Assembly: GCF_007097395.1 (NCBI RefSeq)
Contig: NZ_VKDC01000007.1
Span: 326,810 to 365,039 of the forward strand
Reading direction: 5' to 3'
From: Fulvivirga sp. M361
Lineage (GTDB): Bacteria > Bacteroidota > Bacteroidia > Cytophagales > Cyclobacteriaceae
DNA: 38,230 nt
The position numbers were made by a program, and so were the translations under genes. The notes under the pieces were generated by a model. That model had not been told where the DNA came from, did not search any database, and saw nothing but the letters and a program-made list of their open reading frames with translations. Position 1 is the stretch's first letter. The number at the start of each line of letters is the position of its first letter. Shown piece by piece: positions 18,375 to 38,230 of the stretch.

Positions 18375-18397
18375 TGCTAACTGTATTGAAGAGAATG

Positions 18398-18437
18398 AAA
18401 AGCTGTTTTAAAGGATATACACTTTAAAACAGCTTTT
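18398..18437 (-). promoter_or_regulatory. Perfect 16-bp hairpin between the surface lipoprotein gene and susC
   Basis: AAAAGCTGTTTTAAAG (18398-18413) and its exact complement (18422-18437) flank an 8-base loop. It lies in the only large gap (75 bp) of the ten-gene run, just upstream of susC. Read on the minus strand, the stem ends in only four T residues with no long U tract, so it may be a partial terminator, an attenuator, or a processing or stability element. Confidence 0.7.
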
Positions 18438-18449
18438 AACCATGTTTGA

Positions 18450-19358: not shown

Positions 19359-19382
19359 ATCGTGTTTTTTTGGTTTGCATAT

Positions 19383-19390
19383 CAAATATA
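19383..19390 (-). promoter_or_regulatory. Putative -7 element (TATATTTG) of the PUL operon
   Basis: On the minus strand the sequence is TATATTTG, matching TAnnTTTG exactly, 25 bases before the ATG at 19358. It overlaps the edge of the 36-bp palindrome, so a protein bound there would block or contact RNA polymerase. A good -33 TTTG is not visible, which is common for promoters that depend on a regulator. Confidence 0.65.
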
Positions 19391-19420
19391 CTATGTTCAT
19401 ATGTATGAACATAGTATATT
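19385..19420. promoter_or_regulatory. 36-bp palindromic operator candidate for the GntR regulator
   Basis: Two perfect 17-base arms (19385-19401 and 19404-19420) are separated by TG. The inner half-sites are TGTTCATA and TATGAACA. The core ATATGTATGAACATA (19399-19413) recurs exactly at 21375-21389 upstream of the gntR gene. It sits between the coupled gntR pair and the ten-gene run and overlaps the -7 element. Two-fold symmetry fits a dimeric GntR/HutC-type repressor. Confidence 0.75.
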
Positions 19421-19452
19421 GTCTTTTTTTTACACGCTTTATGTGGTAGTAG

Positions 19453-20562: not shown

Positions 20563-21290
20563 AATTCTCTTTCGCTTTCTACAGTATACACTATACTGTC
20601 TGATTTATAATATCCTATGTTGTATTCTATGGGGCGTCTACCCGGGTCAAAAACAAATCTCTTTCGCTTCAAAATAGGTTCGCCCACATGAATGTGCAGG
20701 CGTTTGGCCAATAGAGGGTCTGCAGCCAGAGCAGTAATTTCTTCCTTACTTACCTTGGCGACAATGGAAAAATCCTGTTCAAGTATATCGTAAAGCGGAC
20801 GACTAAAGTCTTCTTTTCCGGTGAGGCCTATCTTAGGGTTAAAGTAAGAAAGAAAGTATACAAACGGGCATTTCTTATTCCCTCGTACACGTTCCATCTT
20901 CAAGATTTTCACCTCTTCTTCACACCCGAAAAAATTTAGTACTTCACTCGGAGGGACCACCCAATTCAGATCAATGGTGTAATTCACGATCTCAATCCCT
21001 TTGGATTTCATTTCCTGGCTAAAACTCATCCAGTTTTTCGCTTTGCTGTCTACAGGTTGTGAAACCACGGTTCCCACTCCCTTTTTTCTCAATAAGAGTC
21101 CCTCATACACCAATTTATTAGTAGCCTGGCGTAAGGTGTTCCTGGAAATACCGAGCTGTCTGGCCAGATTAATTTCTTTGGGAAGCAGTTTACCCTCCTG
21201 GTATTCAGGCATTGCTATCATTTTTCTGAGGAGTTCCTCAGCCTGTATATGTAAAGGGATTAAGCTATTATGATCGATTTCCAATTTCAT
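20559..21290 (-). CDS. GntR-family transcriptional regulator, HutC subfamily (wHTH plus UTRA)
   Basis: 243 residues, cytoplasmic. Residues ~10-78 are the GntR winged helix-turn-helix (PLHIQAEELLRKMI, LPKEINLARQLGISRNTLRQ, GLLLRKKGVGTVV). Residues ~90-238 are a UTRA ligand-binding domain (ILKMERVRGNKKCPFVYFLS, LHIHVGEPILKRKRFVFD, PIEYNIGYYKSDSIVYTV). HutC-type regulators usually bind a sugar, sugar phosphate or amino-acid derivative and leave DNA on binding. Here it heads the sugar locus, overlaps the next lipoprotein gene, and has a motif upstream matching the palindrome before the PUL run. It is therefore the probable local regulator, in place of the sigma/anti-sigma or hybrid two-component systems common for SusCD loci. 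Confidence 0.96.
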   Translation of the reverse strand: MKLEIDHNSLIPLHIQAEELLRKMIAMPEYQEGKLLPKEINLARQLGISRNTLRQATNKLVYEGLLLRKKGVGTVVSQPVDSKAKNWMSFSQEMKSKGIEIVNYTIDLNWVVPPSEVLNFFGCEEEVKILKMERVRGNKKCPFVYFLSYFNPKIGLTGKEDFSRPLYDILEQDFSIVAKVSKEEITALAADPLLAKRLHIHVGEPILKRKRFVFDPGRRPIEYNIGYYKSDSIVYTVESEREF

Positions 21291-21793: not shown

Positions 21794-22330
21794 ATGTTTA
21801 AGACAATTTCGTTGGCTTTATGGTCAATTTCCTTTTTAGGATTAGCCCTTCTTTACTATTTTCATTTTTCCGCACAGAAAATCGTTTACGTTGATTCAGC
21901 CCGATTGGTCAATAGTTACCAGGGCATGGTGGATATGCGAAAGGACTATCAGCAAAAAGCCAAGGTATGGCAGGCCAACGTAGATACGTTGGCAAAAGAG
22001 GTGCAAAAGACGATTCAGGATTATGAAAAGGAGAGCGGCCGGCTTTCCGCTAAGGAAAAGGCACTTTCCCAGGAGTTGATCCGTACCAAACAACGCCAGT
22101 TGGCCGATTATCAAAAGGTAATCGGCGAAAAAGCTGTCCAGGAAGACGGAAAAATGACCAGTCAGGTATTGGAACAGATAAATGCTTTCATCAAAGAGTA
22201 CGGCCAACAAAAAGACTACCGTATTATTATAGCCGCTACGGAATATGGCAACATCGCCTACGCTGCTGACGGATTGGATATCACAGATGAAATATTGGAA
22301 GAGTTAAATAAGATGTATGCAGGGCAATGA
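21794..22330 (+). CDS. skp: Skp/OmpH-family periplasmic chaperone-like protein
   Basis: 178 residues. Residues 1-26 are a hydrophobic signal or anchor (WSISFLGLALLYYFHFSAQK). Next comes the OmpH-type start KIVYVDSARLVNSYQGMVDM, then a long charged coiled coil (~45-135), and a short C-terminal strand region (YRIIIAATEYGNIAYAADGL, DITDEILEELNKMY). This is the usual Skp layout: a trimer with helical tentacles that holds unfolded outer-membrane or exported proteins in the periplasm. The lack of a clear cleavage site may leave it membrane-tethered. It heads the plus-strand cluster and overlaps the next gene by 14 bases, so it may be a dedicated chaperone for the giant exported proteins downstream (inference). 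Confidence 0.9.
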   Translation: MFKTISLALWSISFLGLALLYYFHFSAQKIVYVDSARLVNSYQGMVDMRKDYQQKAKVWQANVDTLAKEVQKTIQDYEKESGRLSAKEKALSQELIRTKQRQLADYQKVIGEKAVQEDGKMTSQVLEQINAFIKEYGQQKDYRIIIAATEYGNIAYAADGLDITDEILEELNKMYAGQ

Positions 22331-22973
22331 TTATAATTATCGGATGTTTGAATGGTCCGGCATTTTCCCACTCATGACCGTTCTAATGCTGCTATTGGCT
22401 TGCACACCTGAATACCTGTCAGAGGAGGCACTGAAAGCCTGGATAATAGAACAAGAAGCACTCACCAAAAGTCGTGCGTATAAAGGCTTCACAACGCAGG
22501 TGACCTACCGACCTACTGATCTTTTGATTGCTCAGGAATTGGGAGGTGAAGAAGCTTCTTCAACTGAAGAGCTTCAGCGGCTGGAAAATAAATATAGTGA
22601 ATACTATTATTTTATCCTGGCGCTGTCAAGAGGAGATAAGGAAGCTCTCTACCAGGCAGAAGGCGGCTATGAACAGTTCAGTGATCTGGTGCAAACCTTG
22701 TCGTTTCGCATGGGACAGTACCTTAACATGACTACTTCGGGTCAGGATACTATTGAAGTAGCCGATTACGTATTTCCGCGCACCTATGGGATGGGTGGGG
22801 CCACTAATCTCATGTTTGTTTTTAACAAAGAAAACGCCTGGGATGATGACTGGATACAACTCAACCTGAAAGAATTTGGTATGGGGTTGGGCAATCAAAC
22901 TTTTCGCTTTAAAAGAAAAGATCTTGAAGATGTGCCAAGGATAAAATTCAAAGTGTTGTCAACTATTAAATAA
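22317..22973 (+). CDS. Small lipoprotein of unknown function between chaperone and RHS genes
   Basis: Up to 218 residues. The ATG at 22317 overlaps the chaperone gene. An internal ATG at 22344 gives a neater lipoprotein signal (MFEWSGIFPLMTVLMLLLAC) and may be the true start. After Cys comes a helical region (EEALKAWIIEQEALTKSRAY, ELQRLENKYSEYYYFILALS), then a strand-rich C-terminal half (YVFPRTYGMGGATNLMFVFN, RFKRKDLEDVPRIKFKVL). I recognise no family. Its place in the cluster, with only 62 bases before the first giant gene, suggests an accessory role in export or surface attachment (inference). Confidence 0.85.
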   Translation: MQGNDYNYRMFEWSGIFPLMTVLMLLLACTPEYLSEEALKAWIIEQEALTKSRAYKGFTTQVTYRPTDLLIAQELGGEEASSTEELQRLENKYSEYYYFILALSRGDKEALYQAEGGYEQFSDLVQTLSFRMGQYLNMTTSGQDTIEVADYVFPRTYGMGGATNLMFVFNKENAWDDDWIQLNLKEFGMGLGNQTFRFKRKDLEDVPRIKFKVLSTIK

Positions 22974-23035: not shown

Positions 23036-26000
23036 ATGTTTAGAAAACGAAAACTAACACGGATCGTTGCTTTGTTTTTTGTTATGGAAATTGGGATGGA
23101 TATGACCTTTCCTTATATGGTGCAAGCTCTGACTTCAGGTCCTACGGCTCCAGAGGCTAGTAGCTTCGAGCCGGTCGACACTACCGATATGGTCAGTTTA
23201 ATAACCGGAGATTTTACCTATAATCTGCCTTTGTTGGAGGTGCCTGGCCCCTCTGGAGGATACCCTTTGTCTTTATCATATCATGCCGGCATTCAACCAA
23301 TGGAAGAAGCCTCCTGGGTAGGACTAGGTTGGTCCTTAAACCCGGGTTCTATCACCAGAATCGTTAATGGGTATGCCGATGACCATGAAGGAGTAAGTAA
23401 TGCACAAAGGACCTTTTGGGAAGGTGGCTCTACCAAAACCACTTCGGTTGGTGTCTCAGTGGGAATTGCCAATACGGCGACGGTAAGTGCAGGCTTAAGC
23501 TTTTCCCAAGATACCTATCGTGGCTTTGGTATTGGAGGATATGTTGGAGCGGGCGTAGGGATAGGTTTGGGAAAGGACAGTCCCTTAGGAATTGGAGGTT
23601 CTGCTAATTTAAGTTTCATGGATTACGACGGTGACAGTGAGAAAGGAAAAGTTAGCGCAGGGGTGTCCGTTGGGATTTCTATTAGCCAGGCACTTGCACA
23701 AGATATTGGTGCAGGTGGTTTTGTAGGACTAAACTACAACACTCAAAGTGGTTTTGGAGGAGGTGTTAGTGCAGGAATAATCGCACAGAATGCTGAAACA
23801 AATCAGAGCGTTTCATTAATGGGAGCCAGTATTTCAACAGGTGGAGACGGTACTTCAGGTAGTGTGGGAATAGGTGGAGGTACAGCCTCAGTTAACAACG
23901 CTAAATCTAATAATGTCAGTACGCACTCAAGTGGTTTTTCTGTTGATATTCCCACACCCATACCCGCGGTGAATCTACGTCTCAGCAGGCATTATACTCG
24001 GTATTGGATTGATCAATTAGAAACAGTGAGTATTTACGGAGGGTTGTATGCACCTGATTTTAATAGCGATAAGCCTGTGGCAGATTTTAAAAATGCAGCT
24101 TATGACAGTTATGACCTGGCTGACCTAAGGCTGCCTAACAGCAAATTCAAAACTAGTGCAAAAATATTTGGCGGAACATTTCCGGACTACGATATATATT
24201 CGGTCAATGCCCAGGGAATAAGTGGTAATATAAGGCCTTATCATATACAAAAAGCTGTTTATCGACAAAACCTTGAGTATGAAACAGGCGACGTTGGTGG
24301 TGAGTACTACAATTATTCCATGCCCGGAAGAAACTGGCCTGTGCTTTTTCGCTTTGTAGGCGATTTTTCTAACAGCTATAGTGCTGTTTCAGACAATATG
24401 ACCTACAACAGTACAAATAAAGAACTTACATATAATTTTGAAGACATAGAATATACAGAAAAAGTAAAAGGGGCAAAACACATTGCCTACTTTACCAATG
24501 AAAAGATCAAGGAGAATTCAATATCAGCCAGCGGTTTTATAGATGGTAATTCTGTGGGCTTTGAGCGGAAAACCAATAGTCAGATCGGTGGTTTTCAAAT
24601 TACGAATGAATCGGGAGTTACTTATCATTTTTCATTGCCAGCCTATAGTAAAAATGAATGGACTTATTCTGAAAATACAGATGATAAACAAAAGAAATCA
24701 TTCAACAGCCTCGAAAAAGCGGACGAATATGCATATACGTGGTATTTGACCGGCATTACAGGGCCGGACTTTGTAGATAGAGGGACCATTGGGAAATTAG
24801 ATGACCAAGACTGGGGATATTGGATAAGCTTTGAATATGGGTTATGGACAGATATGTATGGATGGAGAAACCCGGGCACAGGTTTCCATAAAGATCTTGA
24901 TACCCGGTTTAGAGGGTTTTCTAAAGGGGATAAAGAGCTGTATTATTTGAATTACATCCGTAGCAAAACGCACACAGCTATTTTCTCTAAAGAAATACGA
25001 AATGACTCAAAGGGAGTAGTTCATGATTTTGATGATAACGCCGTTCGTACTACCACAGCTAACGCCGTAGAAAGTGTTGACGCCGGAGGCTTTGAATCCG
25101 TTGAAAAAAGTATGAGCTGTGAAAGCTCCCAGGTTATTGCTACCATACATCCAAGAAGTACTCTTAAGTTGAATAAAATCTATTTAGTGGCTAATAAGGA
25201 TTTTTCGCCGGCTCAAAGAGAGGCATTGTTAGCTTCTGATGATACCTATCAACATGCTATTGACGGTACCGGTTGTTATTTCCACTATGGTAACCATGTA
25301 GTAGATGTTCATGATGTGAAACAAAACTTTGAAACAACTGCAGTAATAAGGTCAATTGGTTTCAATACCAATTATTCATTGACCACCGGTATGCCCAACA
25401 GTTTTGTATCGCCAATTGATGTTAAAAATAATACGGAATTACAAGCCTCATCTCAGCGAACCGGTAGATTGACTTTAAAATCAGTCTCATTTAATGGAAA
25501 GGGTGAAGTGAACCTTGTCCCTCCTTTGAATTTTAGGTATGGTAAAAATCCAGTCTATCAAGAAGGTGATTGGTCTGACATCTGGGGGTTTTATAAGTCC
25601 GATATGAATATTGCTCTTCGTGAAAAAAATGAAAATGAAGGAAGGGCGGTGACCGAAAACTCAGCCCAAAGTGTTGATGCATGGTCCTTAACCAATATTA
25701 CAACCAGCCTGGGGGCTTCTATCAATATCGACTATGAATCGGATGACTTTCGCTTACCTGATGAATTTAAAAGCTTTGATTTTAATATCGTAGGGGCAGA
25801 GGCACTTAATGAAGATAAGGTGAAGATTACGTTTGACAATGAGTTAGACCCATCAGAATACTTTAAGGTTGGGGAAGAAATTGAAAGCATATTTCTTCAT
25901 CGAAATCATCATTCAAACTATAGATGGCGTTGCGATACCGAGCCAGGCGATCCAAATAATGAGGAGGGTGAAATCTTATGTAGCTATGAGCAGGGGTATG

Positions 26001-28951
26001 ATAAGGTTCTGAATGAGTGGTCTACGGATGACGTGAGAAAATTCAACAGTGTGATTGAGAGCGCCACAGCAGAATATATAATTGTCAATGATCGCCAGTT
26101 GTCTTTCACCGTAGATGGTTTTGATACAAGCGGTGCAATAAGCAGAGAACATCATCGAAATATTTTGATCGCTGATTTAAGGGCCGGTGTGATTTCCAGA
26201 GCCGGGCAAAATACTGATGTATTAGGTGGTGGATTACGTGTTAAAAAAATTAATGTAAAGACTTTAACAGATGAGAGAAGTACATTATATGATTATACTG
26301 TAACTGGTTACAGTTCCGGAGTTACTTCCTATGAACCTACCAAGGTTGAGAAGGTCCTGTTGAATTCAGAAGCAGTAGCGATTGATGGTGTGAACAGCAT
26401 CGATAATGACGGCAACCCGGTGGAGACAAACTTTGACCACGGAGCGTTAGAATTTATAAAACAGGTTTACACGGACCGGGTATCACGAATTTTAGCCATT
26501 TCTCGAGATATACCAGGTCCCGGGGTATATTATAGCCAGGTGAAAGTAAGTGAAGAGGTGAAAAAATCTCCATCTCAAACATTTTCAAGACTTCCGGCCT
26601 ATTCTGTGTACAAGTTTGAGGTATTTCACCCTGGGATGATAGGGACTATGAAAGAAACTGACCCAAAGATTTATCATGAAACAGGTACCTTTTATAATAA
26701 CCTGAGTTATCAAAAGGTAGCAACCCAAAAAGTAAACCTTGAAGATTACACCTCCAGGATAGGAAACTTAAAAAGTATATGCCTCTATGATGGTAACGGA
26801 AAATTATTGAATGAAACTATAAACCATTATTTGCACGATGACATCATTCGTAATGACAATAATGTTCCGCCAACCTTTAACGAGAATGTTGATCAGTATG
26901 AAACGCTGGTAAAAAACAAATTTGATGGTATTGGTATACAAAGTGAAACGTACATTAATGCCCGCTATGTTCGCCAGGGTCAAGATGGACTACTGGATAA
27001 CTTGAATGAAAATGAGCATTACCTTGCCGGCATTGTCTCTGAACGTAAGCATTACCCTAATATCCAAATCGGTCAGACAAGTAAAAATTACAAGACGGGT
27101 ATCATCACGTCGTCAAAAACATTGGCATTTGACAAATATTCAGGTAGTCCTGTAAAAACACTATCAAAGGATGGTTATGGGAATTATTATGTTTCCGAAA
27201 CCACCCCTGCTTATCATAAATACCCTGGCATGGGATTAGTTATGGACGGAGGGGTCAACATGCTTATCCAGGAGGCCGAAACAAAGACGTACAAGGTGGA
27301 GGCCCCCGAGAATCTTACTCCAAAGGGACTTGTTTCTGCCTCTGTTCAAACGTGGAATGATCAAATGCCCTTGATTAACTATGGTAAAAGGAGTGATCCC
27401 ATGACGATTAGGTATGTTGGGAATTCTACCCGCAGTAAAATTTTTGATGTCGTAACACCTAATGTCCTATTTAATGTAGGCGATCAATTAAAGTTTGAGA
27501 CGGATTTTGTAGGGATACATTTTCAGGGAAGTGTAGTAAAAGACCTGGGCAACCGGAGGTATGAAATAGTTGTGCCTACAGTTAAAGTATCCGGCTTTTA
27601 CCCTAAGACTATTGATTTTCCGAATCATCCCGATCAGGTTGTCTGGTTCAAGTCATCACCCTATAAACATCGTTCTTATACTTTTATTGGAAATGACAAC
27701 CTTCAGAAAGATGGGCTCTATGACTACGATACTTACAACTTGAATCTTTTTAATACCTGGCATCACGATCTGGAACCAACTACTTCTTTTTGGCAGAAAA
27801 ATAGTGAGATTACCCTTTATGACGCTCAGTCACATGCCTTAGAAGCCAGCGATGTGAATGGCAATCAGGCCTCTACCCGGTTTGATAGCCGTCAAGAACA
27901 TGTGGTCGCTACGGTAGCCAATGCCGGTTACGAGGAATTTATGTACTCGGGAGCGGAAGATCTAGCACTGGATGATTTTATTGGAATGGCAAATGAAACG
28001 GGGAAGGTTTCAACAGATAAGGCTCATACCGGGATAAAAAGTGTTAAAACAACCGGTAACACCTCTAATGGCTTCAAATATAACCTGACTACAAAGAAAA
28101 GCAGACGCTTGGCGTTGAGTGTTTGGTCCGATAACCGGAATGCTGCCTTAAGTTACCGGATAGGTGAAGGTACGGTAGTACCATTGAATGTTGATCTGCC
28201 CATTCAGCAGTCAGGCGACTGGTACATGTTGAAAGCTACCTTGCCGGCCGTACCGGCAAACAGCAGTATTGAGGTCGCGTGCGCTGCGAATGGGCAAGTG
28301 ACTTATTTCGATGATTTTCGGGCGCATCCGGTAGATGCGACGATGACCAGCTATGTATATAATGAATGGGGTGAGCTGTCTTATATTCTTGATGCGAATA
28401 ATATATACACTAAGTATGAATATGACGCTATGGGCCGATTAATAAAAACGTATCGGGAGAGCTTTGATTACGCAGAGACACTAACCTCTCATATTGTATA
28501 TAAATACAACCCTCCTAAAGCAAATTTAATTGCCCAGCTAGCTTTATTACAGACGTCATACCGGGAAGGTATACAGGGAATGTTAAATGTGAACGCTAAT
28601 TATACACACCCTGATTTACAATATGAAGTATATATAGATAATAGTAGAGTGCTAACTTCTGATACTCCTTACATCTCATGGACCCCTTTGTCAAGAGGCT
28701 CTAAAATCGTTTATGGCGTCGTAAGAGATACACAAACTGGCATATTTGTCCGAACTGAAGAGAAAACGATCAATGTGCATGGTCCATGTCCGCCATACGG
28801 CACTTACTTATATGATCATTGCCGGTATACTGATACCAGTTTCTGTACATTTTATATCGTAGGGGTCTATGCTGATGGCAATTGTGGTACGTACGACGGG
28901 GTGGCTACCGGAGATGTAACCACATGTCCGGTTTCTATCGATTGTGAATAA
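23036..28951 (+). CDS. Giant exported RHS-associated protein 1 (SpvB-like start, Gly-rich insert, Cys-rich end)
   Basis: 1971 residues. An N-terminal hydrophobic segment (~9-30) probably directs export. Residues ~51-115 hold the motif set that opens many Bacteroidota RHS/YD proteins: DMVSLITGDFTYNLPLLEVP, GPSGGYPLSLSYHAGI, ASWVGLGWSLNPGSITRIV, similar to the SpvB/TcdB start. A Gly/Ser-rich strand region follows (~134-290), then YTRYWIDQLETV and a long YD-type body. Near the end are a jelly-roll-like segment (~1690-1765, ending VTYFDDFRAHP), one clear YD repeat at ~1770-1810 (YEYDAMGRLIKTY) and a C-terminal tail with six Cys after residue ~1900. I see no toxin domain and no clear type IX sorting domain. 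It lies 39 bases upstream of the second RHS gene. Confident as an RHS-type secreted protein; role unknown. Confidence 0.93.
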   Translation: MFRKRKLTRIVALFFVMEIGMDMTFPYMVQALTSGPTAPEASSFEPVDTTDMVSLITGDFTYNLPLLEVPGPSGGYPLSLSYHAGIQPMEEASWVGLGWSLNPGSITRIVNGYADDHEGVSNAQRTFWEGGSTKTTSVGVSVGIANTATVSAGLSFSQDTYRGFGIGGYVGAGVGIGLGKDSPLGIGGSANLSFMDYDGDSEKGKVSAGVSVGISISQALAQDIGAGGFVGLNYNTQSGFGGGVSAGIIAQNAETNQSVSLMGASISTGGDGTSGSVGIGGGTASVNNAKSNNVSTHSSGFSVDIPTPIPAVNLRLSRHYTRYWIDQLETVSIYGGLYAPDFNSDKPVADFKNAAYDSYDLADLRLPNSKFKTSAKIFGGTFPDYDIYSVNAQGISGNIRPYHIQKAVYRQNLEYETGDVGGEYYNYSMPGRNWPVLFRFVGDFSNSYSAVSDNMTYNSTNKELTYNFEDIEYTEKVKGAKHIAYFTNEKIKENSISASGFIDGNSVGFERKTNSQIGGFQITNESGVTYHFSLPAYSKNEWTYSENTDDKQKKSFNSLEKADEYAYTWYLTGITGPDFVDRGTIGKLDDQDWGYWISFEYGLWTDMYGWRNPGTGFHKDLDTRFRGFSKGDKELYYLNYIRSKTHTAIFSKEIRNDSKGVVHDFDDNAVRTTTANAVESVDAGGFESVEKSMSCESSQVIATIHPRSTLKLNKIYLVANKDFSPAQREALLASDDTYQHAIDGTGCYFHYGNHVVDVHDVKQNFETTAVIRSIGFNTNYSLTTGMPNSFVSPIDVKNNTELQASSQRTGRLTLKSVSFNGKGEVNLVPPLNFRYGKNPVYQEGDWSDIWGFYKSDMNIALREKNENEGRAVTENSAQSVDAWSLTNITTSLGASINIDYESDDFRLPDEFKSFDFNIVGAEALNEDKVKITFDNELDPSEYFKVGEEIESIFLHRNHHSNYRWRCDTEPGDPNNEEGEILCSYEQGYDKVLNEWSTDDVRKFNSVIESATAEYIIVNDRQLSFTVDGFDTSGAISREHHRNILIADLRAGVISRAGQNTDVLGGGLRVKKINVKTLTDERSTLYDYTVTGYSSGVTSYEPTKVEKVLLNSEAVAIDGVNSIDNDGNPVETNFDHGALEFIKQVYTDRVSRILAISRDIPGPGVYYSQVKVSEEVKKSPSQTFSRLPAYSVYKFEVFHPGMIGTMKETDPKIYHETGTFYNNLSYQKVATQKVNLEDYTSRIGNLKSICLYDGNGKLLNETINHYLHDDIIRNDNNVPPTFNENVDQYETLVKNKFDGIGIQSETYINARYVRQGQDGLLDNLNENEHYLAGIVSERKHYPNIQIGQTSKNYKTGIITSSKTLAFDKYSGSPVKTLSKDGYGNYYVSETTPAYHKYPGMGLVMDGGVNMLIQEAETKTYKVEAPENLTPKGLVSASVQTWNDQMPLINYGKRSDPMTIRYVGNSTRSKIFDVVTPNVLFNVGDQLKFETDFVGIHFQGSVVKDLGNRRYEIVVPTVKVSGFYPKTIDFPNHPDQVVWFKSSPYKHRSYTFIGNDNLQKDGLYDYDTYNLNLFNTWHHDLEPTTSFWQKNSEITLYDAQSHALEASDVNGNQASTRFDSRQEHVVATVANAGYEEFMYSGAEDLALDDFIGMANETGKVSTDKAHTGIKSVKTTGNTSNGFKYNLTTKKSRRLALSVWSDNRNAALSYRIGEGTVVPLNVDLPIQQSGDWYMLKATLPAVPANSSIEVACAANGQVTYFDDFRAHPVDATMTSYVYNEWGELSYILDANNIYTKYEYDAMGRLIKTYRESFDYAETLTSHIVYKYNPPKANLIAQLALLQTSYREGIQGMLNVNANYTHPDLQYEVYIDNSRVLTSDTPYISWTPLSRGSKIVYGVVRDTQTGIFVRTEEKTINVHGPCPPYGTYLYDHCRYTDTSFCTFYIVGVYADGNCGTYDGVATGDVTTCPVSIDCE

Positions 28952-28990: not shown

Positions 28991-31900
28991 ATGAAAGTTT
29001 TCGTATTAATATTATCCTGTAGTCTCTGCCTGATCTATACGTTATCGGCACAGACCAATCAAATAGAAGGGGTGTTTACTGCATGCGAAAGTGACCGGCT
29101 TTCACAAACTTACAGTTCAAAGAACATTTACTACAAATATTTATGGACAGTGAGTGGCGGTGTGATCACGTCCGACGATGATGAGCAGAGCGTTACGGTT
29201 GACTGGAGTATAACAGGTACGCGTAGAATAACTTTGACCACCTGGGGCCCGGCTGGCCTTGAAGGATGTTTTCTAGAGGTAGGTCAAGTGCCGGATGATC
29301 CAAATGCTCCCTGTGGGCCTGCTAATGCCCCGATTGATGAGTATGTCAGTATTGAAAGTGTGGGAACATTGTTATTGAGTAATTATAGCGACACGAACAT
29401 CTGTTCAGGTAATAACGTTGGTTCTTCGCAAGCAATTATCACCTCACCAGCGGTTTTTTTGAGATGGGAAAAAAGACTGGGTAATGGTACATATAGTACG
29501 GTCACTAGTAGTTTTGTGCTCAATTACACAAATTTAACAGAGAACACGACTTATCGGGCAGTAGCTAAAAGGAACAATAGTACTTCGGTGAATTGCGGTT
29601 TGCTATATCAATCATTTAGTACCACTATTCACGTACCTGCTTCAGCAGGTGTGGTACAAGGTGATCGGCAGGTTTATTCACATCTGCCCGCTTCGGGAGA
29701 AATCAAAATGGGAAATGGTGGCATCAATTACCAGGTGGATCACTGGGAAAAGAAAATTGGTGATGAGAATTGGGTAAATATTAATAATCAAGACAATGCC
29801 ACTTATGCCTATGATGAAACTTTTATTAAACCTACTCAGTTTCGCGTGGTAATGAAAGATGAATGCGGGCCGCAAGGGACCATGTCAAATAGTGTTGTCA
29901 TTACAACTCTCGGACAAGATCCAAATTTTATCATGACGACCTCATTAGATAATAATGGCAAATATGCTGAATCAATAAATTATTTCGATTATGCCGGACA
30001 ACCATTACAATCACAGACAAAAGTGTTTTCTGGCGCTAAAGATAATGCTACGATACAAGTATTGAGTTCTACTACACTTAAGGATAGGTATGATCGTACG
30101 GTGATTTCCACACTACCGGCCCCTCTAAACCAATCAGATTTTGCCTACAAAGAAGATTTTGTTACCGGACCATCGGGCGTGGTGTATAATTATGACAATT
30201 TTGACAATTTTGACGATAAAGAATTACCTGATCCTATTAACACCGGTGAACCCGGTACCTTGGGCTGGTATTATAGTAATAATAATACACTTGAGGACCA
30301 TGTTCCAGCCACTGCCTATCCATATTCACGTGTTGAATTTTACGAAGATGGCACAGGTGAGATCAAACGATCAGCTGGGCCAGGAGAGGAGCTCAGGATG
30401 GGGTCAGGTCATGAAGTCTACACGCGAACTTTCGAAGTATCCAGGGAATTAGATCAGTATGTTCAATTCAGAAACAAGCTTTTCGGATTGACTAGTGGCC
30501 CAAACACGCTTGCTCATGAAGCCGTACAATCTGTGGTCATTGACGAGAATGGAAATATGGCCGTTTCTTTTGCAGATCGTGGAGAGAATGTATTGATGAC
30601 TGCGAGGTCGGGTGATTGGCTGTTATTTGGTCCGAATACCGGCCCTGAATTCAGCATTGAAGAAGGAGTAGGGTCCTTTTACCTAATAGAGCCTGCTACG
30701 GTGGATTTAGGTACAGGCGCTGAACTTAGAAATGTAAAAGAAGAAAGCCTGGTACCTTATTCCGCAGGTACTACATCCTTATTAGGTTCAGGGCTGTATG
30801 AGGTAACGGCCCCGTCCACGCTTACGGTGACGCCTTCAAGTCTGCAATATGGTTTTGGGGATATCAGCTGGAATTTTTACAATGATGCAGGAAGGTTGAT
30901 GGTGAGCATAGCGCCTAATGGAGTGAAAGAAATCTTAACTATGGGTATTGATAACATATCTGATATAGAAGATCTACCCTTTGCAACTTACTATACCTAT
31001 AACCACCAGGGCTGGTTGCTGTCAACGCGGGAAACAGATGCGGGAAAGACCAGTTATGCTTATAGAAGAGACGGAAGTATACGCTATTCACAGAATGCTA
31101 AACAAAATAATACAGGAGATTTTTCCTATACAGATTATGACCAACTAGGTCGTCCGCTTGAATCCGGTGAAGTTACCTTTACCCATCAAGGTTCCGGACC
31201 ATATGATTTTTCATCTCTTGACCCTAATGCTGAAGAGTATTTTAAAACAGAGGCGCTTGTAGCTTATTTGAGTAGTTTGTCCGGTTATTCGGCTGCCAAA
31301 AAAGATTGGATCTATACCCATTACGACATTCCTGCTACGAATTTACCCTCTATGCCCGGACAGTCACTCATTCAGGAATTTGTGATGGGAGCCGTTAGCT
31401 GGACGGAGAATGAACACATTACCACCTGGTACAGCTATGACGAACAGGGAAGGGTCACCTGGATGGTGCAGGAGCCCAAAAGGCTGGATGCACAAGGTAG
31501 TAACGTATTGAACTACGTATTCCTTTTATCATATGAATATGACTTTTTAGGCAATGTGTTGGGGGTAGGTTTCAAGAGCTATACGAGTGGTATAATGCAG
31601 GATGAGTTCTACCACTATTACCGATACGATCAGGACAAACGGCTTTCCCAGGTATTCACTGGTTTGGAAGGCGGTCTGGCCCGGGCCTCCCTGCCGGGCA
31701 ATCATGAGGTAACATTACAAGCCAGTTATAGCTATTACCTTCACGGCCCTTTAAAAAGGATAGCGTTAGGTGGAGACTTACAGGGGATCGATTTTGTATA
31801 TAACATCAACGGCTGGCTGAAACAGATCAACCACCCTGATCCCGCTCATGATCCGGGAGGAGACGGACAGAACGAATTTAGTGAAGATGCTTTTGGCATG

Positions 31901-32185
31901 ATCCTCAACTACTATGAAAAGAATATGAATAGTCTTTTCGAAGTATCGGCTACCACTAACAGGCCCAACCCAGCGGAATTCCATGGATTAAAAGAAGGTG
32001 AATTGAGCCCTGTGAGGCTTGCTTCTCTTTTTGATGTGATCAGGCCACATCAACCGCAAATGGTCAATATTCTCAAACAATACAGCGCTGAAAGCCCTAT
32101 GTATCTCGAACAACTTAAAAGAATAAAGCCTCCGGATGTGACCAAGGCAAAGGGATATGAACAGAAAGGAGGGGTGGATCGATGA
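28991..32185 (+). CDS. Giant exported RHS protein 2 (Ig-like repeats plus first half of YD shell)
   Basis: 1064 residues with a signal peptide (MKVFVLILSCSLCLIYTLSAQ). Residues ~25-310 are PKD/Ig-like strand domains (KYLWTVSGGVITSD, YQVDHWEKKIGDENW, TQFRVVMKDECG). From ~315 the DUF6443-type RHS start appears (ESINYFDYAGQPLQSQTKVF, YPYSRVEFYEDGTGEIKRSA, GPGEELRMGSGHE). YD repeats follow (YTYNHQGWLLSTRETDAGKT, YSYDEQGRVTWMVQEP), then YYLHGPLKRIALGGDLQGID, YNINGWLKQINHP (~937) and FGMILNYYEKNM (~968). In single-chain homologs this last motif is followed by the second half of the shell. Here the protein instead ends with an unrelated ~90-residue tail (LFDVIRPHQPQMVNILKQYS). Its stop overlaps the next start as ATGA. 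Confidence 0.93.
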   Translation: MKVFVLILSCSLCLIYTLSAQTNQIEGVFTACESDRLSQTYSSKNIYYKYLWTVSGGVITSDDDEQSVTVDWSITGTRRITLTTWGPAGLEGCFLEVGQVPDDPNAPCGPANAPIDEYVSIESVGTLLLSNYSDTNICSGNNVGSSQAIITSPAVFLRWEKRLGNGTYSTVTSSFVLNYTNLTENTTYRAVAKRNNSTSVNCGLLYQSFSTTIHVPASAGVVQGDRQVYSHLPASGEIKMGNGGINYQVDHWEKKIGDENWVNINNQDNATYAYDETFIKPTQFRVVMKDECGPQGTMSNSVVITTLGQDPNFIMTTSLDNNGKYAESINYFDYAGQPLQSQTKVFSGAKDNATIQVLSSTTLKDRYDRTVISTLPAPLNQSDFAYKEDFVTGPSGVVYNYDNFDNFDDKELPDPINTGEPGTLGWYYSNNNTLEDHVPATAYPYSRVEFYEDGTGEIKRSAGPGEELRMGSGHEVYTRTFEVSRELDQYVQFRNKLFGLTSGPNTLAHEAVQSVVIDENGNMAVSFADRGENVLMTARSGDWLLFGPNTGPEFSIEEGVGSFYLIEPATVDLGTGAELRNVKEESLVPYSAGTTSLLGSGLYEVTAPSTLTVTPSSLQYGFGDISWNFYNDAGRLMVSIAPNGVKEILTMGIDNISDIEDLPFATYYTYNHQGWLLSTRETDAGKTSYAYRRDGSIRYSQNAKQNNTGDFSYTDYDQLGRPLESGEVTFTHQGSGPYDFSSLDPNAEEYFKTEALVAYLSSLSGYSAAKKDWIYTHYDIPATNLPSMPGQSLIQEFVMGAVSWTENEHITTWYSYDEQGRVTWMVQEPKRLDAQGSNVLNYVFLLSYEYDFLGNVLGVGFKSYTSGIMQDEFYHYYRYDQDKRLSQVFTGLEGGLARASLPGNHEVTLQASYSYYLHGPLKRIALGGDLQGIDFVYNINGWLKQINHPDPAHDPGGDGQNEFSEDAFGMILNYYEKNMNSLFEVSATTNRPNPAEFHGLKEGELSPVRLASLFDVIRPHQPQMVNILKQYSAESPMYLEQLKRIKPPDVTKAKGYEQKGGVDR

Positions 32186-35100
32186 AACCTGACCTCCTGA
32201 CCTTCTTACGGATACCCCATCGAATAAAGTACAATGCTACATTGTTAGTCTTGTTTTTTACTTATGGAGCTTTCACGACTGTCAAAGCAACAACCGATAT
32301 TGAGCTGCTCCATTCACGACTGGCCATTGGGAATAGATATTATAGTCATGTGGATGTGGATAGCATGAAAAATCTGTTACAGCATGATGTCTTTACCTTA
32401 CGAGCAGATAACTCGTCTTTATGGCCTTCTGGTACAGAAGACCCCGGGATGAGTAACATTACTTCTGGTCTTCATACCCTGATGACTAGTGCAAAATCAG
32501 GTGTAGTTACCCATACATATACTGAGTTTTCAGACGCCACAAGCTATGATTATGCAGAACGGAGCATAAATAGGCAGGAGAACGCTATCTATAGCCCCGG
32601 AGCAGTTGCGCTGACAAGTAGTTCTTCCCCCCCTTCATCACAAACGTTACGTATTTTGGCCCCTTTGGCATCAGGGCAGGCTTCCTCCCAATATTTTCCG
32701 ATCCAGCATGGGTTTGACGGTCCCCCTACCTGGGATGCTACAGCTCAAATGCCAACAGGTGGTAGTGGCGGTAGCGATGTGCCCGGATATAGCAATCGTA
32801 CGGGGTATATTGATTTTGGTCCCGATTATGCAGACCTGCGTATTACTTCTACCTGGACACAATATCGTCCTAACAGCCAGGGAGATCAAACTCCTTATGC
32901 ATTGGTCTGGTGGGATGATGACAACGATGATGTCAATGATAATGGTGTGGTTACTACTGCGATCAATTTTAATACGGCCCAGGGGTTAGCAAATGTTGGA
33001 TCACTTCTATGGGTTCAGGATACGGATCACAGCAACGCACCCATTACCCCTCTGAGGCGCTACCTGGTGCTGCGGTCCGCAGACCCGATGGGTTGGAGGG
33101 CACGGGAATATGCCATAGTAGGTTACAGTGCAACGGATGAAGGTAATGTGCCGGATCAACTGGAGCTCCAGGCACTCCGAGATCTGTATGAGGATACTAA
33201 CGGAGCCAGTTGGACGAATAATACAGGCTGGCCTTCTACTCCAACGGAATGGGATGCGATCACTTCGCTCGCCCAGGTGAGTAACTGGCATGGCGTACAA
33301 ATAGAAGGTGGCGATGTGACAGGCCTGTTACTGTCCGGTAATAATCTGGTGGGTGCGTTGCCTTCCGGTTTATCCGCAATGGCGGGACTAAGAGAATTAC
33401 AGCTTCATAACAATACATTAAGTGGTCGTTTACCTTCACTAAGTAACCTGACTGAGCTGAAGAAACTACGTTTGGAAGGAGGGAATAACCAGCTGTCCGG
33501 CCCATTACCTGAGGGTCTGGATAACTTAGCCAAGCTGACCAGCTTCCAGGTGTCCGGTAACAATTTTACCGGTACTATTCCAGCTTCTTTTAACGCCTTA
33601 TCCTTGTTAAGTTATTTGGGGTTGGAGGATAATGCATTCACGGGGCTTACAGACTTTACCGCTCACCCTAATGCCACGAATTTGCAGTTGCATGTGGCCA
33701 ACAACTACATTCCACAGTCGGATATTGACGCTAATACCACAGGTACGTTCCATACATTTGTATACTCCCCTCAGAAGTCCATACCTGTCAACCAGGGGTC
33801 TGTATTGGATCAGGTTGAAATAACGGCCTTGAGAGACTTGTACGAGTCTACAGATGGTGCGAGTTGGACGAATGATACCGGTTGGCCCTCAACCTCGGTG
33901 GCATGGGATGCGATTACCTCAACAGATCAGATAATTAATTGGCATGGTGTAACTATTGAGGGAGGTGATGTGGTTGAACTCAGTCTGTCACACAATACTA
34001 TGGAGGGAGAACTTCCGGTGGGTATATTTTCGTTGTCAGGTTTACGTAAGTTAGATGTAGGAGTAAATAATTTGAGTGGCGATTTATCGCAAGTTGATTT
34101 GAGTGATTTAACGGAGTTGTTTCATCTTTCTCTTCAGTTTAATCGATTCATTGGTGATGTGCCGGTAAGTCTGACTACATTGCCAAAGCTTACAGTACTC
34201 AGTATTTCAAATAATTTATTTCGTTCTTTTCCTGATTTTACAGGTCACCCGCGTTCATCCAGCCTTCAGATAAACATCTTCAATAACTACATTCCACCAT
34301 CTGACATTGCATTGAATATGCCAGGTGGTTCACACCCTTACCTTTCGTTCAACTATTCCACTCAATATATTTGGGACCGGGTGGACGATTCTGCTGAAAT
34401 AGCTTTTCTTCGTACACTTTATGAGAATACGGGAGGATTAAACTGGACGAATAATACAGGGTGGCCCTCTATCCCATTGGAATGGGATGGAATTACCGCT
34501 TTAGACCAGGTGAGCGATTGGTATGGCATCAAAACCGAAGGTGGTGATGTGATTGAGTTGAGCCTGCCAAATAATAATATGGAGGGAGAGATGCCATTGA
34601 GTTTGTCTTCCATGACGGGTTTGCGCAAGTTAGCTGTGGGGGCAAATAAGCTTGAGGGAAGTTTTCCCTCACTGGAGCATTTAGTGGAATTAGTTTTGGT
34701 ATCTATCGGTAACAATCGTTTTGAAGGTCCCTTACCTTCTGAGCTTGGTAATTTAACCAAGTTATCTCAGTTCTACCTCCCATCGAATCGTTTTACAGGT
34801 GATATTCCGGCGAGTTTGACCACTTTGCCTAAGCTTAATGTATTGATTGCGTCTAACAATTTGTTTCGTTCTTTTCCTGATTTTACGGGCCACCCGCGTT
34901 CTTCCATCTTTCAGATACATATCTTGAACAATTACATTCCAGCTTCTGATATTACGTTGAATATGCCCGGTGGCTCACATCCATATCAGACGTTCAACTA
35001 TGCCCCCCAGTATATTTGGGACCGGGTAGACGATTCTACTGAAATAGCTTTTCTTCGTGCACTTTATGAGAATACGGGAGGTGCAAATTGGGCAAATAGT

Positions 35101-38100
35101 ACAGGGTGGCCTTCCACTTCAATGGCATGGGATGGGATTACCACTTTAGATCAGGTTAAAGACTGGTACGGGATCAAAGTGGAAGGGGGCGATGTAATTG
35201 AGCTGAGTCTGTCGCACAATAACCTGGAAGGAGTAGTGCCTTCAAGTATGTCTTCCATGACAGGGTTGCGCAAGTTGATCCTGGAGGTGAATAAGCTTCA
35301 AGGAAACTTTCCTTCGTTGGAGCATTTAGTGGAATTAATTTTCGTATCTATCGGTAATAATCGTTTCGAAGGGCCTTTACCTTCTGAACTTGGTAACTTA
35401 ACCAAGTTATCCCAGTTCTATCTCCCATCGAATCGTTTCACAGGTGCCGTGCCTGAGAGTTTAACTACTTTGCCCAAGTTGAATGTATTGATTGCTTCGA
35501 ACAATCTGTTTAATTCCTTCCCCGATTTTAGAAATCACCCTCTCGCGTCTGCTCTTCAGCTCTGTCTTATCAATAACTATATTTCAGCTTCTGATATTGC
35601 ATTGAATATGCCCGGCGGATCACACCCTTACCATACCTTTCACTATATTCCACAAAAAATATTGAATGGCGCTGTGATTGATGAGTTGGAAATTCAGGCG
35701 CTTCGTGATCTTTATGAAGGCACCAGTGGAGCGAACTGGGCCGATAATACAGGATGGCCGGCTACGGCAGCAGCATGGGATGCTATTACTTCAGTGGATC
35801 AGTTGATTAGCTGGTATGGGATTACGGTAGAAAACGGTGACCTGTCTGAAATTGCCTTGGACGATAATAGTGTTACAGGCTCTATTCCATTATCTCTTGA
35901 GGCTTTGTCATTGAAAAAATTGTTTTTATCGGGCAACCAAATCTCAGGAGAGATTCCCGGTTTTCTTTTTCAACTACCTACGTTGGTCCAATTGTCCCTG
36001 ACGGATAACCAGTTTACCGGAGCTTTACCCAATACCCTTAACTTGCCCTGGATAGAATATATTGACATAGGCAGTAACAGGCTGTCAGGAGAAGTCCCGT
36101 CATCCATTTCCACACTGGGCAGGCTCAAAAGGCTTACATTAAATTCGAATAACTTTGAAGGTGATTTCCCACCGTTTGATTTGGCCGGGCAGGTGTATGA
36201 TATGAATATTGCTGATAATCAATTCACCTCTATTCCTTATTTCGAACGTGTGGATGAATTGCGTGTTCAGGGCAACCTACTCACTTTTGAAAGCCTGGAG
36301 ACCCAACTGGCTGGCGGAACACCCCCAAGAGTTTTTTCCTATGCTCCACAAAACAACCCTGTTCCTGTGATAAATATAGGGTTGGGAAGTAATGTGCCTG
36401 TCGTTAATGACCGTTCCGGAGGCTCTAATACGACTTACCAATGGCAACAATGGAATGGAACCGCCTGGGCAGCGATTTCCGGAGCTGTCCAGGAAGACCT
36501 TACCCTTACAGGAGTGGACCAAACGTTCATAGGGAACAAATACCGTTGTGAGATGAACAACACGTTGCTCACAGGGATGACCATTTATTCCTCAGAATTC
36601 GAAGTGACACAAATTTTTGATGGTATCCCTGAAAACTACCAGGTCAAACCCATGCACAATGGTAACATCACTTCTATGCAATGGCGCACTACAGCGCCGG
36701 TAGATACGGAAGCATCAGATTTTGAAGGGATCTACCTGTTTGACTATGACGATAAATATCAACTGACTCAGGCCCTCTGGGGAGAAGCCACACTCACAGG
36801 AGGGGTAAATATAAATAGCAATCGCTACCGTGTTACCGGGCTGGAGTACGACCCTAATGGCAACATTAATGCACTTAAGCGCTATGACGAAAAGGGTCAC
36901 TTTAAGCATAATTTCAAGTATCATTATACATCGAACACGAACCAGTTAGATCGTGTAGAGCAACGCGTCAGCGGTACGGATTATGCCAATTACCATTACA
37001 ACAAAATCGGCCAGTTGAATGAAGAATTGAGCGAAGACGGTAAGGACAAATACGTCGAGTATGACGTAACTGGAAAAGTGGTGGCTGTTTATGCAGAAGG
37101 CACCGTTGACTCCGTGACTAAAGAGGCAACCTTTGTAGAAAATAGTAAAAAAGTAAGTTATACCTACGATGATCGTGGGTTCCGGCTTACCTCTAAAAAC
37201 CATGACACGGGCATTACCACCTGGTACATCCGTGATGCCTCGGGAAATGTGATGAGCATCTTTGAAGAAAAAGAAGCCACTGCCGGTAACCTCGTGCAAA
37301 AAGAAGTACCGGTGTACGGATCAGGTAAAATAGGCACCTATTATGCCGACCAGGACGGCTCGATGGCCTATGAAATGACAGATCATTTAGGGAATGTACG
37401 AGCAGTGGTAAGCCGGCGTAACGTGACGTTTGAAGCTACCATGGAAGACTCAGGCCTGGCTGATTTTACAAACCCCAGGGTAGAAGAGATGCAATACTTT
37501 CAAAACCTGGAGACTACTGAATTGACCAATGCCGGTCCGTTCCTTAATCATACCGCCGGAGGAGACATAGTGGCCTATCTTACCGGAGATGGAAACCGTA
37601 TTATAGGACCCGCTACCACATTGAAAGTGAAGGAAGGGATGAAGATTAATACAAAAGTATACGCCAAATACGAAAAGCAGAGCAGTTACGCTTCTCCATT
37701 AGGGATCCCCTTTTTAGCGGACCTGTTAGGGAGTACTTATGTTGGTCAGAATGGTCGTGAGGTGGTTTCAGAACTCTCAGATCTATTTGAAGGAGCATTG
37801 ACAGGGTTTGCCAACACAGGGGCAGAGAACACCAGACCATTGGCTTTTCTGAACATCATTTACTTTGATGAACAGTTTACCATGTTAGATGCTCAAAAGG
37901 TACAGATAACTTCCGAGTCAGGTTTTGCTACCGGGCAGGAAAGTACGGTGAAGTTTGATTCCATTAAAAAGGACATAACTATTAGTTCTTCTGGTTATAT
38001 TTATGCCTACGTTTCTAACCATACTCCCGGAAGCAAGGTGTATTTTGATGATTTATCGGTGACATTGACAGAAGACATCGTGACGCAAGCCACAGACTAC

Positions 38101-38230
38101 TATGCAGGCGGCTCGGTCGCGAGAAGGGCCAATACACCGAATAGTTATTTTGAATCACCCACTGATACAGTAAAAAGGAACTTCGGACAATATTACCGCT
38201 GGGGTTTTCAGGGACAGTTTGCAGAAGAGG
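32182..38230 (+). CDS. Giant exported LRR-RHS protein 3 (second half of YD shell; truncated by window end)
   Basis: At least 2016 residues; the frame is open to the window end. ATG at 32182 overlaps the previous stop (ATGA). Residues ~15-36 are a hydrophobic signal. Residues ~37-320 are strand-rich and unrecognised (YIDFGPDYADLRITSTWTQY, WWDDDNDDVNDNG). Residues ~327-1395 hold five leucine-rich-repeat modules, each starting like LRDLYEDTNGASWTNNTGWP and continuing with plant-type LRRs (SGNNLVGALPSGL). An Ig-like segment follows (~1396-1480, YQWQQWNGTAW). From ~1482 RHS sequence resumes: MHNGNITSMQWRTT, FDYDDKYQLTQALWG, YDPNGNINALKRYDEKGHF, YTYDDRGFRLTSKNHDTG, YEMTDHLGNVRAVVS. The last residues, YYRWGFQGQFAEE, open the RHS-associated core. 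Any C-terminal toxin and immunity gene lie beyond the window. Confidence 0.95.
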   Translation, partial: MKPDLLTFLRIPHRIKYNATLLVLFFTYGAFTTVKATTDIELLHSRLAIGNRYYSHVDVDSMKNLLQHDVFTLRADNSSLWPSGTEDPGMSNITSGLHTLMTSAKSGVVTHTYTEFSDATSYDYAERSINRQENAIYSPGAVALTSSSSPPSSQTLRILAPLASGQASSQYFPIQHGFDGPPTWDATAQMPTGGSGGSDVPGYSNRTGYIDFGPDYADLRITSTWTQYRPNSQGDQTPYALVWWDDDNDDVNDNGVVTTAINFNTAQGLANVGSLLWVQDTDHSNAPITPLRRYLVLRSADPMGWRAREYAIVGYSATDEGNVPDQLELQALRDLYEDTNGASWTNNTGWPSTPTEWDAITSLAQVSNWHGVQIEGGDVTGLLLSGNNLVGALPSGLSAMAGLRELQLHNNTLSGRLPSLSNLTELKKLRLEGGNNQLSGPLPEGLDNLAKLTSFQVSGNNFTGTIPASFNALSLLSYLGLEDNAFTGLTDFTAHPNATNLQLHVANNYIPQSDIDANTTGTFHTFVYSPQKSIPVNQGSVLDQVEITALRDLYESTDGASWTNDTGWPSTSVAWDAITSTDQIINWHGVTIEGGDVVELSLSHNTMEGELPVGIFSLSGLRKLDVGVNNLSGDLSQVDLSDLTELFHLSLQFNRFIGDVPVSLTTLPKLTVLSISNNLFRSFPDFTGHPRSSSLQINIFNNYIPPSDIALNMPGGSHPYLSFNYSTQYIWDRVDDSAEIAFLRTLYENTGGLNWTNNTGWPSIPLEWDGITALDQVSDWYGIKTEGGDVIELSLPNNNMEGEMPLSLSSMTGLRKLAVGANKLEGSFPSLEHLVELVLVSIGNNRFEGPLPSELGNLTKLSQFYLPSNRFTGDIPASLTTLPKLNVLIASNNLFRSFPDFTGHPRSSIFQIHILNNYIPASDITLNMPGGSHPYQTFNYAPQYIWDRVDDSTEIAFLRALYENTGGANWANSTGWPSTSMAWDGITTLDQVKDWYGIKVEGGDVIELSLSHNNLEGVVPSSMSSMTGLRKLILEVNKLQGNFPSLEHLVELIFVSIGNNRFEGPLPSELGNLTKLSQFYLPSNRFTGAVPESLTTLPKLNVLIASNNLFNSFPDFRNHPLASALQLCLINNYISASDIALNMPGGSHPYHTFHYIPQKILNGAVIDELEIQALRDLYEGTSGANWADNTGWPATAAAWDAITSVDQLISWYGITVENGDLSEIALDDNSVTGSIPLSLEALSLKKLFLSGNQISGEIPGFLFQLPTLVQLSLTDNQFTGALPNTLNLPWIEYIDIGSNRLSGEVPSSISTLGRLKRLTLNSNNFEGDFPPFDLAGQVYDMNIADNQFTSIPYFERVDELRVQGNLLTFESLETQLAGGTPPRVFSYAPQNNPVPVINIGLGSNVPVVNDRSGGSNTTYQWQQWNGTAWAAISGAVQEDLTLTGVDQTFIGNKYRCEMNNTLLTGMTIYSSEFEVTQIFDGIPENYQVKPMHNGNITSMQWRTTAPVDTEASDFEGIYLFDYDDKYQLTQALWGEATLTGGVNINSNRYRVTGLEYDPNGNINALKRYDEKGHFKHNFKYHYTSNTNQLDRVEQRVSGTDYANYHYNKIGQLNEELSEDGKDKYVEYDVTGKVVAVYAEGTVDSVTKEATFVENSKKVSYTYDDRGFRLTSKNHDTGITTWYIRDASGNVMSIFEEKEATAGNLVQKEVPVYGSGKIGTYYADQDGSMAYEMTDHLGNVRAVVSRRNVTFEATMEDSGLADFTNPRVEEMQYFQNLETTELTNAGPFLNHTAGGDIVAYLTGDGNRIIGPATTLKVKEGMKINTKVYAKYEKQSSYASPLGIPFLADLLGSTYVGQNGREVVSELSDLFEGALTGFANTGAENTRPLAFLNIIYFDEQFTMLDAQKVQITSESGFATGQESTVKFDSIKKDITISSSGYIYAYVSNHTPGSKVYFDDLSVTLTEDIVTQATDYYAGGSVARRANTPNSYFESPTDTVKRNFGQYYRWGFQGQFAEE
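33160..36366 (+). repeat. Array of five ~580-655 bp leucine-rich-repeat modules
   Basis: Modules begin at 33160, 33814, 34393, 35038 and 35686. Each encodes a cap (LYE-T-GA-WTNNTGWPS, then WDGIT and WYGI, EGGDV) plus several LRRs, and modules 1-4 end in an NNYI-like loop before the next cap. Modules 3 and 4 are near identical in DNA over long stretches, for example around 34680-34800 and 35328-35448, and share in-frame junctions reading YIWDRVDDS. This points to recent duplication and possible copy-number change by recombination. The fifth module is the most diverged. Confidence 0.9.

Follow-up and report, generated by a model that had tools for sequence, protein, structure and literature searches.

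Can a single Rhs/YD shell be made from two separately encoded and separately exported proteins? The question is raised by a locus of the Bacteroidota bacterium Fulvivirga sp. M361, which was analysed in a window of 38,230 nucleotides (nt; G000:C116:326810-365039, G000 being the genome and C116 the contig), the 3' end of which coincides with the contig end. Two adjacent genes in the window encode the proteins P2 and P3, and a preliminary description of the sequence had proposed that a shell is divided between them, the break (here called the seam) being filled by leucine-rich repeats (LRRs). Shells of this type are hollow and frequently hold a toxin. We consider it rather likely that P2 and P3 together make up one Rhs/YD shell, which is a single chain in most relatives found.

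A probable shell divided between two genes

The features of P2 and P3, all on the plus strand, are the following:

28991..32185, plus: P2, 1064 amino acids (aa), with a signal-like N-terminus, immunoglobulin (Ig)-like domain(s), a DUF6443-like and YD shell part and a short C-terminal tail; AlphaFold2 model
29906..31951, plus: P2 shell part, most likely the middle arc (residues 306-987)
31928..32182, plus: conserved C-terminal tail of P2, YSA..P.Y...L type (residues 980-1064)
32182..32185, plus: ATGA, the P2 stop overlapping the P3 start (direct reading)
32182..38229, plus: P3, at least 2016 aa, open at the contig end
32182..32289, plus: signal-like N-terminus of P3 (residues 1-36)
33127..36606, plus: seam insert, five LRR modules and an Ig-like linker (P3 residues 316-1475)
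36625..37416, plus: shell resuming at NGNI-MQWRT (P3 residues 1482-1745)
37417..38070, plus: CBM16-like beta-sandwich ahead of the RHS core (P3 residues 1746-1963)
38071..38229, plus: start of the RHS core, running into the contig end; its final 139 nt also occur on two other contigs

The layout agreed closely with the one first described. INGWLK and FGMILNYYE were located at P2 residues 939 and 968 and NGNITSMQWRT at P3 residue 1493 (earlier placed at about 937-980 and 1482, respectively), and the ATGA overlap of the genes was read at 32182-32185. The five LRR modules assigned to P3 were borne out by cap motifs at residues 331, 549, 742, 957 and 1173, and by matches to LRR_4 (113 bits, E 4.5e-33) and LRR_8 (98 bits, E 2.6e-28; cut-offs 27). 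In agreement with the signal peptide proposed for P3, its first 60 residues form the most hydrophobic stretch of the chain, with none of 32 internal blocks scoring as high, and the signal-like N-terminus was also the most hydrophobic block in 15 other P3 proteins examined. The DUF6443 match of P2 (E 7.6e-5, 23.4 bits) lies under the Pfam cut-off of 27.8. Because the window ends with its contig, P3 is cut inside the RHS core.

The break recurs in homologous loci

Relatives of P2 were present in at least 34 of 196 genomes of the family, four candidates being scored in each. Stretches were taken from the family-genome list (20) and from the genome of M361 itself (10), and eight split P2 sequences served as probes in a further scan, of which the best 80 of 96 yielded 79 named loci. 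Two hidden Markov models (HMMs), both seeded from the loci under study, marked the shell on either side of the seam, YD the part ahead of it and RHSa the part that follows. In all, 110 loci were examined, leaving 92 distinct loci after removal of 13 duplicates and of 5 loci without a YD end.

Sixty-nine of the 92 encode one chain in which a joint of 8-92 aa bridges the seam, in keeping with the earlier statement that single-chain relatives run directly across the seam; four encode one chain with an insert of 509-1521 aa, and 19 are split. Because the search started from split P2 proteins, kept the best 80 of 96 and relied on HMMs seeded from these loci, 19/92 should not be read as a prevalence. 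The remaining shell lies in the next gene in 13 of the split loci, at a spacing of -41 to 450 nt. In three others (L099, L102 and L105) the next gene starts signal-like and is then cut by the contig or locus end, and in the last three (L101, L103 and L112) the contig stops within 513 nt. Hosts of split loci include Fulvivirga kasyanovii, F. aurantia, Ohtaekwangia koreensis, Chryseolinea serpens, Dawidia soli and Parachryseolinea silvisoli, the last with four loci, which are paralogues; L102/L105 and L107/L120/L121 are near relatives, and the sequence of L120 contains runs of X. A second five-gene set (OmpH-like protein, lipoprotein, P1, P2 and a complete P3) was found in the M361 genome itself (L068, G000:C69 424-14842, minus strand), with the break as in the window and LRRs in its P3.

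These observations bear on the simplest alternative, that the break is a local frameshift, a pseudogene or an assembly error. The window does stand at a contig end, yet some 6 kb separate the break from that end, and the break is shared by 18 other distinct loci, one of them in the same genome, with signal-like N-termini and the conserved tail. Since the same break recurs in homologs among the 92 distinct loci, local error is excluded; we regard this explanation as refuted and its remaining probability as negligible. Homologs showing such an error had been named beforehand as one finding that would overturn the proposal, and the recurrence points the other way. On the sequence evidence, the break is a real, conserved design and no sequencing or local error.

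A protein database search gave a similar picture. Of 67 P2 homologs, 21 stop 57-86 aa past the seam and 42 run on, one has an odd end of 622 aa and three could not be scored; candidates were limited to 0.55-1.75 times the P2 length, a limit that favours split proteins. The 21 come partly from the same organisms as the loci, and three of them end like L101, L120 and L103. In the tree of YD parts, 18 split rows (all but L068) and the four insert rows cluster among one-chain rows (SH-aLRT 90, not starred). L068 stands apart from the other 22 split or insert rows in this tree, as would be expected if the split arose independently several times, but it groups with them in the RHSa tree (86), and a single clade for all 23 was not rejected (approximately unbiased test, p 0.27).

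The seam as an insertion site

Among 13 split P3 proteins, LRRs precede the shell part in 11, an fn3 and GDSL lipase insert takes this place in L113 (C. serpens), and L098 has no insert, its signal-like N-terminus being followed directly by the shell. The LRR filling described earlier is thus typical of the break and not essential to it, and LRRs were rejected as a defining feature (L098 without an insert; L113 and L115 with fn3 and GDSL). The four in-frame inserts comprise three LRR arrays (L100, L129 and L147) and one fn3 and GDSL insert, and the latter type occurs in both arrangements, split in L086 (Chryseolinea serpens) and as one chain in L087 (Parachryseolinea silvisoli). As the same inserts are found in split and unbroken chains, the seam is an insertion site that is used with or without opening of the chain, and LRRs, to judge from these loci, are exchangeable there. 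A single-chain RHS protein elsewhere in the M361 genome (L071, G000:C138, 9969-18548) carries LRRs between its DUF6443 and YD parts, a different insertion site.

Split P2 proteins extend 39-87 aa beyond the end of the YD profile, often with YSA..P.Y...L. A tail profile was built from 14 tails outside the clade of the window, and four held-out tails of that clade were scored. The window tail reached 9.8 bits and the others 19.5-27.0, each above all 200 of its own shuffles; as background, the 69 bare joints scored at most 0.6 bits, and the best of 1800 shuffles scored 8.6. Applied to the linkers of in-frame inserts, the profile scored L129 above 200 of 200 shuffles and L100 above 198, but 16 shuffles of L147 and 149 of L115 scored as high as the linker itself, and we claim no link between these linkers and the P2 tail. 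One guess is that the P2 tail is a docking element.

Shell fold and co-variation of the two parts

The predicted folds of P2 and P3 align to the solved Rhs/Tc barrel, and the A3 profile matches solved Rhs proteins. In both solved chains listed for the two models, P2 precedes P3: in predicted-structure alignments, P2 lies at 473-853 and P3 at 769-1129 of Tse5, and at 1257-1811 and 1754-2114, respectively, of 6suq. Neither model covers the whole shell in any of the alignments listed, which is an indirect test of whether each half closes on itself. Tree distances of the YD and RHSa parts correlate with r 0.82 in the 13 split loci and r 0.78 in 68 bare loci (L077 left out of the bare set), and none of 1000 permutations reached either value. 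Because neighbouring genes share history, this co-variation supports contact of the two parts without proving it.

It may instead be that P2 and P3 act separately: P2 would be secreted as an Ig/YD protein, and P3 would be an independent LRR-RHS protein whose own part of the shell suffices. Each has its own signal-like N-terminus, the intergenic gaps reach 404 nt in L110 and 450 nt in L104, open reading frames (ORFs) with the P3 shell and no YD part lie near one-chain genes in L114 (2-1639, cut by the locus end) and L149 (13071-14216), and a related LRR protein without RHS is encoded in the same genome (C56). Against these stand the want of a whole-shell alignment for either part among those listed, distances that correlate as they do in fused chains, and identical insert types in unbroken chains, all of which make separate proteins unlikely. 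Of the original proposal that two exported chains form one shell, the conserved break, the co-variation and the order of the predicted folds favour the joint shell, and P2 and P3 would physically join; the proposed counterpart in TcB and TcC did not hold.

Comparison with Tc toxins and other Rhs proteins

The Tc BC component (TcB-TcC, for example TcdB2-TccC3 and YenB-YenC2) is, like the shell proposed for P2 and P3, a hollow Rhs shell of more than one chain; its closing chain, as described in an excerpt of PMC8765631, likewise carries the RHS core and a variable toxin end, and P2 and P3 match consecutive regions of TcdB2-TccC3 in the alignments. It differs from the window set, in which each chain has a signal-like N-terminus and an LRR arm is added. 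The equation of P2 and P3 with TcB and TcC was rejected. In 10 of the 11 Tc entries listed, the TcB/TcC boundary falls inside P2, including 6l7i and 5kis, in which TcC is a separate chain starting at P2 517-518; in the eleventh, 4igl, P2 lies entirely on TcC, at 48-507. In either register the seam between P2 and P3 is within TcC, so that, on the predicted models, it lies inside the TcC-equivalent.

No SpvB domain (PF03534) was found in P1, in P2 or at the locus, where a diverged domain could escape the profile, and the TcB-binding domain of TcA (PF18276) was found at neither C116 nor C69. The absence of a TcA, as first described, is therefore true of the locus and not of the genome, which has three PF18276 matches (C104, C59 and C105) and three PF03534 matches on other contigs and hence apparent Tc-type loci as well.

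Effectors of the type VI secretion system (T6SS), such as RhsA, Tse5, Tse15 and RhsP, share the shell fold and RHS core with P2 and P3; they are translated as one chain whose N-terminus is T6SS-linked, whereas the window has two or three genes with Sec-like signals. According to an excerpt of PMC8765631, the RhsA toxin is cleaved yet kept inside the cocoon, and teneurins, unlike the window set, are single chains whose toxin-like domain lies outside the shell. Mosquito SGS1 is one chain of 3364 aa, and the excerpt on it does not mention an LRR insert at this seam. The Sec-exported RHS polymorphic toxins of Bacteroidetes, as covered in an excerpt of PMC3482391, likewise combine RHS repeats, general secretion and exchangeable nuclease ends (Tox-GHH, Tox-WHH); a split shell, an LRR arm and an OmpH-lipoprotein-P1 set go unmentioned in that excerpt, where "leucine-rich" is used once, for an immunity family. 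Among the literature matches listed, including excerpts of PMC8765631, PMC7073777, PMC3482391 and PMC9935623, none describes this layout.

The RHS core and its possible cargo

The RHS-associated core TIGR03696 scored above its cut-off in five of five full split P3 proteins (NCBIfam scan). Pfam domains of toxins were recognised near the C-terminus in three of eight, namely Tox-GHH (L079), WHH/colicin-DNase (L084) and EndoU (L104), and no toxin domain was recognised by Pfam in the other five (L068, L085, L086, L120 and L127). The arginine-aspartate-aspartate residues of the core are named catalytic in an excerpt of PMC9935623; a text pattern for them (R-D-D), constructed for this analysis, was present in six of eight full split P3 proteins, followed by 204-237 aa, as well as in 59 of 78 complete ORFs from distinct loci. 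LamG-type domains were seen between the shell and the C-terminus in L084, L085, L127 and L120.

The last 139 nt of the window P3 are identical on contigs C113 (L074) and C123 (L073) of the same genome, which carry the RHS core with differing C-terminal parts; in sequence terms, a shared core with different ends looks like exchangeable toxin cassettes. A conserved delivery part with varying toxin ends was found in the relatives, and the window P3 ends ahead of that region. C123 has repeated copies of the core, and genes downstream on C113 resemble recombinases by eye.

The variety of domains raises another explanation, that the shell, once assembled, serves as a surface adhesin or scaffold similar to teneurins and not as a toxin carrier. 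LRR, Ig, CBM-like and LamG modules are abundant, the end of the window P3 lies beyond the contig, and the five full split P3 proteins without a recognised toxin domain fit this idea. It is at odds with the three that end in Tox-GHH, WHH/colicin-DNase or EndoU, and with the two small contigs on which the RHS core bears different ends, as in exchangeable toxin cassettes, and we hold it to be improbable.

Companion genes

Three genes precede P2 in the window:

21794..22330, plus: OmpH/Skp-like gene, first of the recurring set (PF03938, E 1.1e-23)
22317..22973, plus: p218, second gene of the set, a putative lipoprotein of 218 aa without a Pfam family
23036..28951, plus: P1, 1971 aa, RHS-type, predicted to be exported, with a DUF6531-like N-terminus and an RHS repeat near the C-terminus

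The OmpH-like and p218 genes overlap each other ahead of P1, and p218 has a lipobox-like LLLAC (read by eye). Among 17 P1 proteins, nine match DUF6531 and six match RHS_repeat at E of 0.01 or less. Among 56 distinct loci that include P1 and extend 1500 nt or more upstream of it, OmpH-like relatives were present in 37, p218 relatives in 43 and both in 37; many loci have the pair ahead of P1, and in Hymenobacter rows it follows the RHS gene. Where P1 was not detected (19 loci, many of them contig fragments), both relatives were absent. In the 196 family genomes p218 occurs at 22 places, of which 19 have a P1 match no more than about 2 kb away (compared by eye), a twentieth is beside a P1 ORF and two (G127:C44 and G019:C60) have no P1 seen. 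P1 is spread more widely, in 33 of the 196 genomes, a lower bound as two candidates were scored per genome. The OmpH-like protein and the lipoprotein may be a pair dedicated to the export or folding of the giant proteins.

No PAAR, VgrG or other T6SS-linked N-terminus was found in P1-P3 by Pfam and NCBIfam scans. TIGR04183, the C-terminal sorting domain of type A substrates of the type IX secretion system (T9SS), was not reported for P1, P2 or P3 of the window, where P3 is truncated, or for the complete P3 of C69, and none of its 149 matches in the genome lies within either gene set (150 of 200 candidates scored).

P1 is proposed as a TcB-like partner, a role for which it is likelier than P2. 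Its profile reached no better than E 0.38 against RhsA, a match of P1 alone to exfoliative toxin C (E 0.004) was taken as chance, and 18 single chains that lack a P1 neighbour showed no P1-like stretch. On another contig of the genome (L069, G000:C56, 2606-18583), an LRR protein without RHS, 62-68% identical to the N-terminal and fifth-LRR parts of P3, lies directly upstream of another OmpH-like/lipoprotein/P1-like set.

A working model for the proposed divided shell

Weighing against a joint shell with enclosed cargo are the register of P2 on the barrel, which is not uniform and leaves some ambiguity, and the presence of toxin domains in just three of eight full split P3 proteins. The reading that we nonetheless prefer, P2 and P3 as parts of one shell, would work as follows. 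P2 and P3 would each be exported by their own Sec signal and would probably meet in the periplasm or outside the cell. P1 most likely joins them, supplying the opening part of the shell as TcB does for TcC, while P2 would form the middle arc and P3 would close the barrel with the RHS core. In relatives, the aspartyl-protease pattern of the core is followed by an end of about 200-240 aa, which would be the enclosed cargo, in several of them a nuclease toxin that may kill other cells. The seam would be a loop facing the outside of the shell, able to take surface modules (LRR arrays or fn3 and GDSL lipase), and opening the chain at this point would allow a single gene to encode the arm, the closing part and the cargo, which might then be exchanged together. 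A target surface is the most likely binding partner of the LRR array.

We tentatively suggest that such loci may represent a distinct class in Bacteroidota, a secreted, self-assembling, multi-chain Rhs shell in which an OmpH/Skp-like chaperone and a lipoprotein handle P1, P2 and P3, a toxin-loaded capsule closes outside the cytoplasm, the wall seam serves as a socket for exchangeable receptor arms, and arm, closing part and toxin travel together in one gene. Of the Rhs shells compared here whose structures are known, those of Tc toxins have two chains and the others one. With chains that cross the inner membrane separately, the shell would have to close around its cargo outside the cytoplasm and, if this is true, enclosure of cargo would be independent of one continuous translated chain. 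The seam would also mark where recognition modules attach to an Rhs shell in nature. Because no T6SS-type or T9SS tag was recognised on the giant proteins, the OmpH-lipoprotein pair provides a lead on how they leave the cell.

Upstream of the gene set, on the minus strand at 15312-21290 of the window, genes for a TonB-dependent receptor, a DUF5005-like protein and a GntR/UTRA regulator resemble an unrelated nutrient-uptake cluster.

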